Source: Chloroflexota bacterium (GTDB taxonomy: Bacteria; Chloroflexota; Limnocylindria; P2-11E). From it: a stretch of 39,847 bases of DNA. The notes below the pieces were generated by a model that was given only the letters and a program-made list of their open reading frames with translations, had not been told where the DNA came from and did no database searches. Location of the stretch: assembly GCA_005881885.1 (NCBI GenBank), contig VBDX01000151.1, positions 1 through 39,847 on the forward strand, read 5' to 3'. The translations under genes and the position numbers were made by a program. This document shows positions 2,821 to 39,847 of this stretch, one piece after another; the stretch's first letter is position 1, and each line of letters starts with the position of its first letter.

Positions 2821-3145
2821 ATGGAGCTCGCATTCCTCGGCGGCGCGACCACCGTTACGGGATCGCAGTTCCTTCTCGAGACCGGAGACACACGCGCACC
2901 TCGTCGCGAGCGGCTTCCACGGCTCGATTTACGCGACCGCGGGGACGAACGATCTCGCGGGACTGGTCCTCCTGGACGCGGCCAAGCTGCAGACCGAGTT
3001 CGCGAAGCGCGCGGTGCGACGCGAGCGCCATCACCATCATTTGCCTCGCGACGCGGAAGCCGAGCTTCACGCGTCCGGGCCCGAGGTGACCACCGAGATC
3101 GACGAGCCGCTCTACACCGAGGCGGCGCGAGCGGGTGAGGCTGGA
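2821..3145 (+). pseudogene. Remnant of an RNase J/CPSF-like metallo-beta-lactamase (beta-CASP) hydrolase gene
   Basis: The frame from ATG 2821 reads MELAFLGGATTVTGSQFLLE, a near-perfect start of the MBL 'RNA-specificity' exonuclease family. After ETGD (about 2889) the homology moves to the +1 frame: THAHLVASGFHGSIYATAGT, then LAGLVLLDAAKLQTEFAKRA and finally EPLYTEA at about 3105-3125. In intact relatives ETGD is followed by about 30 residues before LTHAHxDHxGRLP, and HAH is followed by DHxG before the LVxxGFxGPIYAT segment. Here both segments are missing, so there are at least two deletion scars, one of which shifts the frame. Homology stops at LYTEA and the reading runs into the convergent kinase gene. 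Metal ligands HxHxDH are incomplete and the beta-CASP and C-terminal domains are absent. A non-functional relic is the best reading; a sequencing or assembly error could explain one scar but not all. Confidence 0.75.
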
Positions 3146-35994: not shown

Positions 35995-36613
35995 CGAGAT
36001 CGATCTCGCGGGCGCCGAACGCGTTCACCACGATCGTGTCATGGAACTCGGTTCGGGTAACGGTCCGCGCGTCATAGACGTGGGAGTGGCCATGCAGGTG
36101 ATACCGCGGTCTGAACGTGCGCAAGAACCAGCGGAGCGCTTCGAATCCCCGGTGCGCATGGTCGGGGAGGTCATGGATGCCGCGGGGCGGGGCGTGCGTC
36201 ACGAGCACGTCGAGATAGCGGCCGCGCCTCGCCTTGTTCGCGAGGAGCGACGGGATCATCCCGAGGATGGCGAGCCACATGTCGCCCTCGCTGAGCTGGT
36301 ACGGCCCGTCGCTGTACCGGCGTGACCCGCCGAGCCCTGCCACGAGCAGGCCGTTGACGGCGACGGTGCGTCCGTGGAGATCGATGCCCCGCCACCAGTC
36401 GCCGATGGTCGGATCGTCCAGCAGCTGCGGCGGCACGTCATGGTTTCCATGCACGGCGTAGAGCGGAACGGAGAGCTCCGTCGCAACGAAGTCCAGATAG
36501 TCGTAGGGCAGGTCGCCGCAGCCGAGGACCAGGTCCACCCGCCCGAACCGCTGGCGCGCGGTCGGTGCGTGCACGGCTTCGTCGACGACGTCGCTGAGAG
36601 CGAGGATGCGCAC
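35981..36613 (-). CDS. Calcineurin-like metallophosphoesterase lacking the first His
   Basis: 210 residues from GTG 36613, chosen because RILALSDVVDEAVHAPTARQ starts the fold; an upstream frame to 36712 overlaps the start of the Rieske gene on the other strand. Metal motifs: LGCGDLPYDY (GD), VHGNHDVPP (GNHD), VTHAPPRG and HLHGHSHVYD (GHxH). The first motif, normally DxH, is DVV (SDVVDE), so one metal ligand is missing; I recall this SDxVD form from Icc-related proteins in high-GC bacteria. Substrate unknown: phosphodiesters or cyclic nucleotides are typical. The gene is divergent from the Rieske oxygenase (38 bp apart). Confidence 0.88.
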   Translation of the reverse strand: MRILALSDVVDEAVHAPTARQRFGRVDLVLGCGDLPYDYLDFVATELSVPLYAVHGNHDVPPQLLDDPTIGDWWRGIDLHGRTVAVNGLLVAGLGGSRRYSDGPYQLSEGDMWLAILGMIPSLLANKARRGRYLDVLVTHAPPRGIHDLPDHAHRGFEALRWFLRTFRPRYHLHGHSHVYDARTVTRTEFHDTIVVNAFGAREIDLDARS

Positions 36614-36651
36614 GTGTCCAGTCTCGCATCGCTCGATAGCATCGCCCCGAG

Positions 36652-37746
36652 ATGAGCGACGCGGTCTTCGAGATCGACCCGGATATCCGCCTTGCCCGGA
36701 CCCTGCCGGCACGGGTGTACTCGGATCCAGACCTCTTCCGGGCGCAGCGCGACAGCGTGTTCGCGCGCACGTGGCAGTACGCCGCCCACGACGACCTCGT
36801 GAAGGTGCCGGGACAGGTATTCCCGTTCACGCTCCTGCCCGGCGCCCTCGATGAGCCGCTGGTCTTGACGCGCGACTTGAGCGACCAGATCCGCTGCCTC
36901 TCGAACGTGTGTACGCACCGCGGCACCGTGGTCGTCGAGGGCGCGGGACACGAGCAGCAGCTTCGCTGCCGCTACCACGGGCGGCGTTTCACGCTCGACG
37001 GGCGTTTCCACTCGATGCCTGAGTTCGAGGAAACAAAGGACTTTCCATCGCCGGCCGACGATCTGCCGCAGGTCGGGCTCGGCGCCTGGGAGCGGTTCCT
37101 CATGGTCTCGCTCGCGCCCGCCATGCCGTTCGAGGAGGCGGTCGCGCCGATGCGCGCGCGTCTCGCCGGACTTCCGTTCAATGCGCTCGTCTACGACGCG
37201 GCGGGGGCCCGCGAGTACCTCGTGAACGCGAACTGGGCGCTCTACATGGATAACTATCTCGAGGGGTTCCACATCCCGTACGTGCACTCGAGCCTCGCCG
37301 CCACGCTCGATTACGGCGAGTACGCGGTCGAGCTGGAGCGGTATCTGGTGCTGCAGCTTGCGATCGCGAAACCGGGTGAGGCGGCCTTCGCGCTGCCGCC
37401 GTCGCATCGCGACCACGCCCGGTCGATCGGCGCGTATTACTTCTGGATCTTTCCGACGACGATGTTCAATATCTATCCCTGGGGCGTCTCGGTGAATGTG
37501 GTTACCCCGCTCGCGGTCGACCGCACGCGCGTCTCGTTCCTGCCGTTCGTGTGGGACGGAGCGAAGCGTGAGACAGGCGCGGGCGCCGGGCTCGACCGCG
37601 TCGAGCGTGAAGATGAGGCGATCGTCGAGGCGGTGCAGCGGGGCGTGCGCTCGCGCCTGTACGAACGCGGACGGTACTCACCCGCGCGAGAAGGCGGCGT
37701 TCACCATTTCCACCGGTTGCTCGCGGAGTTCATGCAGAGCCGCTGA
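36652..37746 (+). CDS. Rieske [2Fe-2S] ring-hydroxylating/N-demethylating oxygenase alpha subunit
   Basis: 364 residues. Rieske cluster ligands: LSNVCTHRGTVVVEGAGH and LRCRYHGRRFTLDGRF (CxH...CxxH with the normal 17-residue spacing). Mononuclear iron site: NWALYMDNYLEGFHIPYVHS (DNYxEGxHxPxxH, the two His) and an Asp-rich helix EREDEAIVEAVQRGVRSRLY near the C-terminus (third ligand). WKHVARRWQYA-like opening (FARTWQYAAHDDLVKVPGQV) is standard. The YHSxL loop (YVHSSLAATLDYGEYAV) is as in choline monooxygenase and carnitine or betaine oxygenases. It needs an electron donor; no reductase or ferredoxin gene is adjacent. A strong terminator follows at 37753. Confidence 0.92.
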   Translation: MSDAVFEIDPDIRLARTLPARVYSDPDLFRAQRDSVFARTWQYAAHDDLVKVPGQVFPFTLLPGALDEPLVLTRDLSDQIRCLSNVCTHRGTVVVEGAGHEQQLRCRYHGRRFTLDGRFHSMPEFEETKDFPSPADDLPQVGLGAWERFLMVSLAPAMPFEEAVAPMRARLAGLPFNALVYDAAGAREYLVNANWALYMDNYLEGFHIPYVHSSLAATLDYGEYAVELERYLVLQLAIAKPGEAAFALPPSHRDHARSIGAYYFWIFPTTMFNIYPWGVSVNVVTPLAVDRTRVSFLPFVWDGAKRETGAGAGLDRVEREDEAIVEAVQRGVRSRLYERGRYSPAREGGVHHFHRLLAEFMQSR

Positions 37747-37752
37747 GCAGCA

Positions 37753-37783
37753 AGACGCCGCGCGGAGTGTCCGCGCGGCGTCT
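37753..37783 (+). terminator. Hairpin terminator after the Rieske oxygenase gene
   Basis: A perfect 14 bp stem (arms AGACGCCGCGCGGA and TCCGCGCGGCGTCT) with a 3 nt GTG loop starts 7 nt after the stop codon. The tail CGTGATG is not U-rich, so rho-independent efficiency is uncertain. Confidence 0.6.
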
Positions 37784-38121
37784 CGTGATGCGGGGGGCTC
37801 CGCTCAGTCGTCGCGGTGTTCGAATCCCTCGGCGTTCGACGTGCCGTCCGTGAGGAGCTTGGCCGCGCCGTCGACGGTGTAACTCGGTCGGACCAGGGGC
37901 AGCGTGACCCTGCCCGGAACGCTGAAAGTCGTCCGGCGCTCAAGCACGAGAGGCGCGGCGCCAGTGGATCACCCGAAAGGGTGGGAGCGGGCAGCGTGGG
38001 CCACATGTGGAGGAACTCGCACCCGTCGTGAAGGACCTCGCGGGGTCCTGACACCTCTTCGAGACGGGAGCCACTGCCGACTGGGTGATGGCCGCGAGCA
38101 TCGAAAGAATTTCACTTGATC
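37784..38121. other. Intergenic stretch, no confident gene
   Basis: About 340 bp between two strong hairpins. It holds a CACCC-GAAA-GGGTG tetraloop hairpin (37968-37981 region) and an AGGACC-GGTCCT hairpin near 38028-38045, plus the broken minus-strand frame described separately. No tRNA fold could be assembled and no rightward promoter is convincing. Confidence 0.4.
37804..38054 (-). pseudogene. Possible small-protein gene broken by a frameshift
   Basis: From GTG 38054 one frame reads VSGPREVLHDGCEFLHMWPT and LPAPTLSGDPLAP with GC-rich third positions, then deteriorates. Near 37965 a second frame takes over and reads LVLERRTTFSVPGRVTLPLV, then SYTVDGAAKLLTDGTS and ends EGFEHRDD at 37804, again with good codon bias. 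Joining both gives about 90 residues. GTG 37947 would allow the second part to be a separate 47-residue protein. There is no good ribosome-binding site or recognised family, so this could be a real frameshifted gene, a sequencing error or chance. Confidence 0.3.
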
Positions 38122-38172
38122 GCGCTGGGCCGTGGCTGGTGGGTGGGTTGGAGCCGCGGCCCAGCGCTTTTT
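38122..38172 (+). terminator. Intrinsic terminator with G-tract loop
   Basis: Left arm 38122-38137 (GCGCTGGGCCGTGGCT) pairs with right arm 38152-38167 (AGCCGCGGCCCAGCGC) over 16 bp with one U-G wobble, followed at once by TTTTT (38168-38172). The 14 nt loop is GGTGGGTGGGTTGG, four G-tracts that could fold as a two-layer G-quadruplex. The U-tract direction is rightward, but no rightward coding gene lies between the Rieske terminator and this hairpin. Confidence 0.75.
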
Positions 38173-38321
38173 CTCCTTCGGTCCAGCTCGAATGGCCGGC
38201 CGTGCTCACGATCGGCAAACCTTCCCTTCATCGGACGCCCCGCGACCCTGCCGGCGCGCTACAGGAGATCCGCTTCCGTGGGCGGGTGACGCGGATTTGA
38301 CGGCGCCCCATCCGCGCCGCG

Positions 38322-39434
38322 ATGCTGAGCGACGGTGGGGAGCCCCAACTGAGCGAGCCGAGGCCCGGGAAGTCCTTCCGCGCCGCTGGCGATCGCATCG
38401 TTCGTCAAGAATCAGCGGCTCCGTCCGTCGTGACACGACTCCTCGGCGCGCCGATGACCGCCGCGCGCGCGGTAACGAGCGATGAGGACGCGTGGGCCGT
38501 GCGGCTGGCCGCGCTCGCGACCCTGGCTCAGTACGACGGTCTCGCGATCGTCGTCGACGACCCGGTCGGAGTGTCGCGCACACACAACGTGATGGGCGAC
38601 CCGCTCGCCGATCCCGTGATACGCGCCCTGGTCGACGAGACGAGACGAAGCGCCGCCACCGCGCGGATGCCCGCCGCCGTGCCGCTCGCCGATGGACGGG
38701 CCGCCGATGTGCTTCTGGCGGCTCCGCTCGTCGTGACCGAGGGTTCCGGCGGGGTGCTGATCGCGTTCCGTGTCGGCCGCTCATTCACGGCGGCCGACGC
38801 CGTGAATGCCTACGGCGTCGCCGAGCTTCTCGCGCTGGAGCTTGCGCGCGCACACGACCGGCGTCGCGATGACGCGGACCGTCGCCAGGCGCTCACCCTC
38901 TACGAGCTCGGACGCCTCGCGATCTTCGGCGAAGACATCGAGGCGACGTTGCACGCAGCCGTGACCGTCCTCGCGAACACCGTCGATCACGACGTCGCGC
39001 ATCTCTGGATCTCGCTCTCGGACGGATCGCTCGAGCTCCGCGCGGCGCAACCGCAGCTCGTGCCGGCGCTCGACGTCGTCCGACCGCGAGATCACGGTGT
39101 GCTCTCGGAGGTCCTCGTCCAGCGCCGGGTCGTGAAGGTTGAAGAGGCGATGCCAGTCGCATGGATGCCAGCCGATGCGCGGTCGCTTCTCGTCGCGCCG
39201 CTCATCGACCGGGGCCGACCACTCGGGCTGCTCGTTCTCGGTCGCGAGCGCGAGCCGTATGGACCCGAGGACGTGGAGTTCGCGGGAGTTGCCGCAAGCT
39301 TCATCGCGCGCTTGGTCGCCGCAACGGCCACAGACGTACGCGAGCGATTCCGCGAAGGGGTTCTGTCGCCGCCCATCGCGGAGTGGCCCGACGAGGTAGA
39401 GGTGCTCGAGGAGCTGAGCTCGCCAGGGAGCTGA
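38322..39434 (+). CDS. Tandem GAF-domain protein
   Basis: 370 residues from ATG 38322 (GTG 38430 and ATG 38454 are alternatives; no start has a clear Shine-Dalgarno, and the first 36 residues look poorly conserved). The first GAF-like unit spans about 50-165: YDGLAIVVDDPVGVSRTHNV, AADVLLAAPLVVTEGSGGVL, AYGVAELLALELARAHDRRR. A linker helix (DADRRQALTLYELGRLAIF) leads to the second GAF domain (about 205-345): LHAAVTVLANTVDHDVAHLW, ARSLLVAPLIDRGRPLGLLV, GPEDVEFAGVAASFIARLVA. GAF domains bind small ligands or chromophores. No kinase, cyclase or phosphatase output domain is attached, so it may act on a partner protein. It ends 2 bp from the convergent gene at 39437. Confidence 0.82.
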   Translation: MLSDGGEPQLSEPRPGKSFRAAGDRIVRQESAAPSVVTRLLGAPMTAARAVTSDEDAWAVRLAALATLAQYDGLAIVVDDPVGVSRTHNVMGDPLADPVIRALVDETRRSAATARMPAAVPLADGRAADVLLAAPLVVTEGSGGVLIAFRVGRSFTAADAVNAYGVAELLALELARAHDRRRDDADRRQALTLYELGRLAIFGEDIEATLHAAVTVLANTVDHDVAHLWISLSDGSLELRAAQPQLVPALDVVRPRDHGVLSEVLVQRRVVKVEEAMPVAWMPADARSLLVAPLIDRGRPLGLLVLGREREPYGPEDVEFAGVAASFIARLVAATATDVRERFREGVLSPPIAEWPDEVEVLEELSSPGS

Positions 39435-39436
39435 GC

Positions 39437-39847
39437 TCAGCGCTCCGCCTCGAACTCCCAATCGTCGACCACCGGAGCACCAGCGACAGTCAGCTCGAGC
39501 CGGACCCGGTAGCGGCCGGTCGCCAGCGGCCTTGACGGCACGATCGCGACGTAGTCGCGCTCGTAGATCTGAGGGACGGCATAGCTCGTCACCTCGGTTC
39601 CGCTCGCGTCCGTCACTTTCGCGGAGATCAGATCAACCATCGGCGCGTTCGCGAATAGGACCATGACCGGGTAGCCGACCGGACGCGCCGCACCCGACGG
39701 CAGAACGTCAGGCGACTCTTCACCGGACCACGAGCCGGAGACGCGCTGGCCCGGAGCGGGCGAACGCACCCGATCGGGGGCAGACGATCCGAAGTCGTAC
39801 ACGAGAACACCGACGGTCTCGATCCGTCCGGCGATCTCGGCGTGACC
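39437..39847 (-). CDS. C-terminal fragment of a secreted CAP/SCP-like or Ig-like protein (partial, N-terminus beyond window)
   Basis: 136 residues; the frame is open to the window edge, so the gene starts outside. The visible part is beta-rich: a segment HAEIAGRIETVGVLVYDFGS at the edge, then Pro-rich PAPGQRVSGSWSGEESPDVL and a final Ig-like domain (YPVMVLFANAPMVDLISAKV, ATGRYRVRLELTVAGAPVVD). The arrangement 'VGVxVYDF...P+xY' and the closing beta-sandwich domain resemble the C-termini of CAP-domain (cysteine-rich secretory/SCP) proteins of high-GC bacteria. The CAP domain itself is not visible, so the assignment is tentative. Confidence 0.5.
   Translation of the reverse strand, partial: GHAEIAGRIETVGVLVYDFGSSAPDRVRSPAPGQRVSGSWSGEESPDVLPSGAARPVGYPVMVLFANAPMVDLISAKVTDASGTEVTSYAVPQIYERDYVAIVPSRPLATGRYRVRLELTVAGAPVVDDWEFEAER

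Follow-up and report, generated by a model that had tools for sequence, protein, structure and literature searches.

Probable deletion scar with a surviving putative intrinsic terminator between a Rieske gene and a GAF-domain gene in a Chloroflexota genome

The DNA analysed here, called the window, is a stretch of 39,847 nucleotides from a Chloroflexota bacterium (contig VBDX01000151.1). Towards its right end a Rieske gene is separated from a GAF-domain gene by an interval (37747-38321) which holds two hairpins and several short matches to genes that are intact in related genomes (Table 1). An earlier note had seen no rightward gene ahead of the second hairpin and had suggested that the hairpin could end a small non-coding RNA. 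There is indeed no intact gene, but relics of genes are found on both strands. The hairpin ascribed to the Rieske gene itself is present as described, with arms at 37753-37766 and 37770-37783; it is also found, with one mismatch, in the related genome G003 (locus L069).

Table 1. Features found between the Rieske and GAF-domain genes, with their positions in the window.
Feature	Position	Strand	Evidence and remarks
Perfect 14-bp hairpin, no T-run	37753-37783	+	Behind Rieske (36652-37746), in what was ancestrally the gap between convergent Rieske (+) and DUF4331 (-)
Relic: DUF4331 C-terminus and stop codon	37804-37908	-	tblastn match 37807-37908, 39.7 bits (at most 25.8 in 500 shuffles); 87.8% DNA identity to G003
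Relic: spacer between DUF4331 operon and LLM gene (former divergent promoter region)	37913-37978		85.5% identity to G003 L068
Relic: F420-dependent LLM oxidoreductase, last 18 codons and TGA	37995-38051	+	RGPHVEELAPVVKDLAGS at 37995-38048, then TGA; tblastn 37.7 bits (at most 26.2 in 500 shuffles); orthologues in G004, G006, G010
Putative intrinsic terminator	38122-38172	+	16-pair stem, loop GGTGGGTGGGTTGG, TTTTT; identical to G003 at 47 of 51 positions
Relic: CvpA start codon and tail, frameshifted, stop lost	38192-38260	+	C-terminus LPFIGRPATLPAR at 38221-38259; tblastn 30.8 bits (at most 24.3 in 500 shuffles); also matched at DNA level in G003 and G006

A DNA search with 37786-38180 over 61 genomes, the window's own (G000) and 60 relatives, gave matches in nine of them, the own genome included. 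The matches were scattered in separate blocks over different contigs, as if the region were a mosaic, and reading the loci showed that they are gene ends. The relative G004 (L067) has, one after the other, Rieske (+), DUF4331 (-), spacer, LLM oxidoreductase (+) and CvpA (+), and the relics in the window have the same order and strands. The gene names come from profile matches of the intact relatives, which are PF14224 (Pfam, E 5.8e-137) for DUF4331, PF00296 luciferase-like monooxygenase (Pfam) together with TIGR03621 F420-dependent LLM class oxidoreductase (NCBIfam) for LLM, and Colicin_V/CvpA PF02674 (E 3.1e-8) for CvpA. The relics are thus collinear with genes intact in relatives, and their protein matches lie above chance. 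It should be noted that a permissive blastn control reached E<=1e-5 in 6 of 200 shuffles, the best being 9.2e-7; because of this the DNA match of the LLM relic to G004 (4.7e-8) is only modestly beyond chance and the protein-level tblastn matches were relied on. The match of the spacer to G003 (E 8.8e-13) is beyond chance, and its weaker collinear match to G004 (37913-37973, E 0.003, taken alone within chance) covers L067 2165-2226, just short of the LLM start at L067 2245. The junction bases at about 37979-37994, aligned locally to eight loci, gave nothing beyond short gapped scores.

The distribution of the three genes was followed in the own genome and in the relatives. In G000 CvpA has no match at E<=0.001, the relic is the only match to DUF4331, and LLM finds no protein closer than 42% identity, whereas the whole orthologues in G001, G002 and G010 reach 74-78% and a partial orthologue in G006 reaches 86%. 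Judged from these searches the three genes are lost and have not moved elsewhere in the genome. G003, which like G000 is a draft genome of many contigs, has lost LLM and kept CvpA and DUF4331; the latter lies in two parts on separate contigs, which we infer to be one gene. Two signatures of deletion are seen: four shared nucleotides, GCCG, at the CvpA junction, and the loss from the DUF4331 relic of a 42-nt stretch which G003 has between two CCCTCG repeats. Taken together, the comparison makes it very probable that deletions between the Rieske and GAF-domain genes left 37786-38260 as a scar in which the ends of three lost genes remain.

The same interval (window 37747-38321; L065, L066, L067, L070, L071) is a hotspot of gene turnover in the genus. 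It contains DUF4331, LLM and CvpA in G004, CvpA and genes that we take to be transporter-like in G008 and G009, and almost nothing in G001 and G010. In the latter two the Rieske and GAF genes are only about 100-120 nt apart, and gene loss in the interval is therefore recurrent. In G008 the string RVFSGT followed by a stop (L065 about 3030-3060, minus strand) lies ahead of CvpA and resembles, by eye and without a control, the tail relic of LLM; it looks like an independent loss of LLM. Beyond GAF on the right, a minus-strand gene at 39437-39847 of the window has a relative with 72% DNA identity that sits between CvpA and GAF in G006 (L072), so that the gene order has changed here too.

The second hairpin was found as the earlier note had described it, a 16-bp stem with a G-rich loop and a TTTTT tail, and it looks like a genuine intrinsic terminator. 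The arms (38122-38137 and 38152-38167) form 16 pairs, of which 13 are G-C and one is G-T; the loop occupies 38138-38151, and TTTTTC follows directly 3'. The GC-rich stem-loop and the U-run immediately 3' of it are thus on the same strand. No other T-run-tailed stem of at least 10 pairs occurs on either strand of the whole window, and among 20 Markov-shuffled windows two had one such site. The hairpin stands 70 nt past the stop codon of the LLM relic and 19 nt ahead of the start codon of the CvpA relic. The GC-rich stem, the T-run at once behind it and the site past a stop codon are those of textbook intrinsic (Rho-independent) terminators, with the difference that the gene once served by this hairpin is gone. 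The usual textbook terminator has a stem shorter than 16 pairs and a loop shorter than the 14-nt G-rich one found here.

Among 28 genomes of the family the hairpin was found in G000 and G003 only; the other family genomes gave nothing beyond short matches close to chance (best E 0.004). When a collection of genome contigs was scanned for the hairpin pattern, the single match was VBIL01000125.1 (MAG Chloroflexi bacterium CF_129), taken as G003's own contig, and a scan of viral contigs gave zero matches. The upper 14 pairs and the T-run are unchanged between the two genomes. G003 differs at the two lowest positions of the left arm and at two loop bases, so the stem is retained in this one relative with its lowest two pairs altered and zero compensatory changes. 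The retention of upper stem and T-run agrees with a working terminator. At four-fold sites the two genomes are identical in 75.6% of 193 sites in the Rieske gene and 76.8% of 224 sites in the GAF gene, and a binomial test of the hairpin (47/51) against 0.76 gave P 0.003, a post hoc value from a test set up after the alignment had been inspected; the flank 38048-38121 (62 of 74 identical) was not significant (P 0.07). With a post hoc test, and with identities of 80-88% between the two genomes in other non-coding or relic pieces too, the conservation of the hairpin is weak evidence of selection.

The gap between LLM and CvpA is 140 nt in the window and 29 nt and 31 nt in G004 and G006, which both are without the hairpin. 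The segment with the hairpin thus adds about 100 nt and is present in only 2 of the 28 family genomes, a limited spread which counts against the reading as an inherited terminator. The approximately 70 nt at 38052-38121 are 86% identical to G003, are without a match in other relatives and occur only together with the hairpin. The frame 38055-38186 is uninterrupted in G000 and also in G003. It was not called a gene: a search with the peptide matched well only G003 (E 3.9e-18), the next-best match had an E of 0.005 and no family was found, and by eye the differences between the two genomes are mostly nonsynonymous.

The earlier note had further proposed that a quadruplex in the loop competes with the stem or strengthens it. 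With the quadruplex option of ViennaRNA a two-layer quadruplex is predicted in the window's loop, which has the four G-tracts needed for at least two layers (-41.3 kcal/mol vs -37.6 without it). It is predicted to stack atop the stem at the cost of one closing pair and would hardly compete with it. The structure is thus energetically allowed in this genome, but the capacity to form it is not conserved: the loop of G003, GGTGGGTGGGTCAG, has lost the fourth GG and no quadruplex is predicted there, which weakens the idea even if the two loops agree at 12 of 14 bases. The G-rich pattern GGNGGGNGGGNNGG has 17 matches in the genome vs 8 for the reversed control; the loop motif is therefore not rare, which says nothing on function. 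Among the titles and opening parts of abstracts in the open-licence literature searched, none describes a quadruplex in the loop of an intrinsic terminator. A function of the quadruplex is unsupported by conservation, and the G-rich loop is probably incidental.

The proposed small RNA gene is not borne out by the analysis, because the DNA in question is made up of collinear relics of DUF4331, LLM and CvpA, has no excess structure and matches no Rfam family above chance. The fold of 37786-38121 has a z of -0.32 (34 of 100 shuffles were as good) and with the hairpin included -1.15 (15 of 100). At gathering scores Rfam had zero family matches in the whole window; at E up to 10 five matches were obtained in 37740-38330, with E values from 3 to 8.2, all at chance level and far below gathering scores. 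A c-di-GMP-I-GGC match at the low threshold was rejected, being below its gathering score and spanning a long insertion in the alignment. The string GCCACTG was considered by eye as a cobalamin-type box and dropped because the low-threshold search gave no cobalamin family. The two 5' hairpins pointed out as parts of the RNA do exist in the sequence, but they are codons or a deletion junction and are not conserved. AGGACC-GGTCCT is made up of the LLM codons KDLAGS plus the stop, and in G004, G006 and G010 at most 3 of its 6 pairs (by eye) are left, so that it cannot form. CACCC-GAAA-GGGTG spans the junction of the spacer-LLM deletion and is absent in the nearest relative; at this site the sequence of G003 jumps straight to the LLM stop region.

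A small non-coding RNA might still end at the hairpin; it may have arisen when deletion joined the leftover LLM promoter to the LLM terminator, and would then be about 200 nt long. The terminator survives, and so does the spacer that once preceded the LLM start, and pseudogenes of Mycobacterium leprae are reported to be transcribed via missing terminators or leftover promoters (PMC2753549), which keeps an orphan transcript alive as an explanation. As in that organism, relics lie here between live genes and signals may have survived, with the difference that here only gene ends remain. Against such an RNA stand the Rfam and folding results, the origin of the internal hairpins, and a scan for promoters of the sigma-70 type which found no promoter-like site in 36500-39847. 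We regard it as quite improbable, and there is a slimmer chance still for its more specific form, in which deletion of the LLM body joined promoter and terminator into a newly born orphan RNA of about 200 nt whose loop would form the two-layer quadruplex here but not in the sister genome.

The hairpin could also be an attenuator in the leader of CvpA, with the loop quadruplex as its potassium-sensitive part. It lies about 20 nt ahead of the CvpA start both in G003 and in the relic, a match of 132 nt in the DNA search of the genomes is kept at 89%, and a quadruplex is predicted in the loop of this genome; in G003, which has no LLM gene ahead, it stands directly before CvpA and could act in this way there. 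In G003, however, whose CvpA is intact, no quadruplex is predicted, and in the window's own genome CvpA is dead. No strong antiterminator pairing was seen by eye, and in G004 and G006 CvpA follows LLM at only 29-31 nt without the hairpin. Of the explanations considered we find this one the least credible. The hairpin at 38122-38172 is in all likelihood an ordinary intrinsic terminator which has survived in a scar of gene decay, termination and the transcript served being read from its form and position.

The ancestor had, between Rieske and GAF, DUF4331 reading leftward and LLM oxidoreductase and CvpA reading rightward. As the comparison shows, each of the three genes has since lost most of its length by a deletion of its own in this lineage, and their ends were left. 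The hairpin, as its position in both genomes shows, already stood between LLM and CvpA in the ancestor common to G003, where its role was presumably to stop the transcription of LLM. At present it would most likely halt read-through from Rieske, or from a leftover LLM promoter, before the GAF gene.

With this reading a false small-RNA candidate is removed, and deletion scars in GC-rich genomes are seen to be able to mimic structured RNA regions. Should the orphan RNA nevertheless be real, it would offer a dated case in which a collapsed gene gave rise to a small RNA. The interval between Rieske and GAF illustrates clearly, on a small scale, how genes are lost step by step and turned over in closely related genomes.
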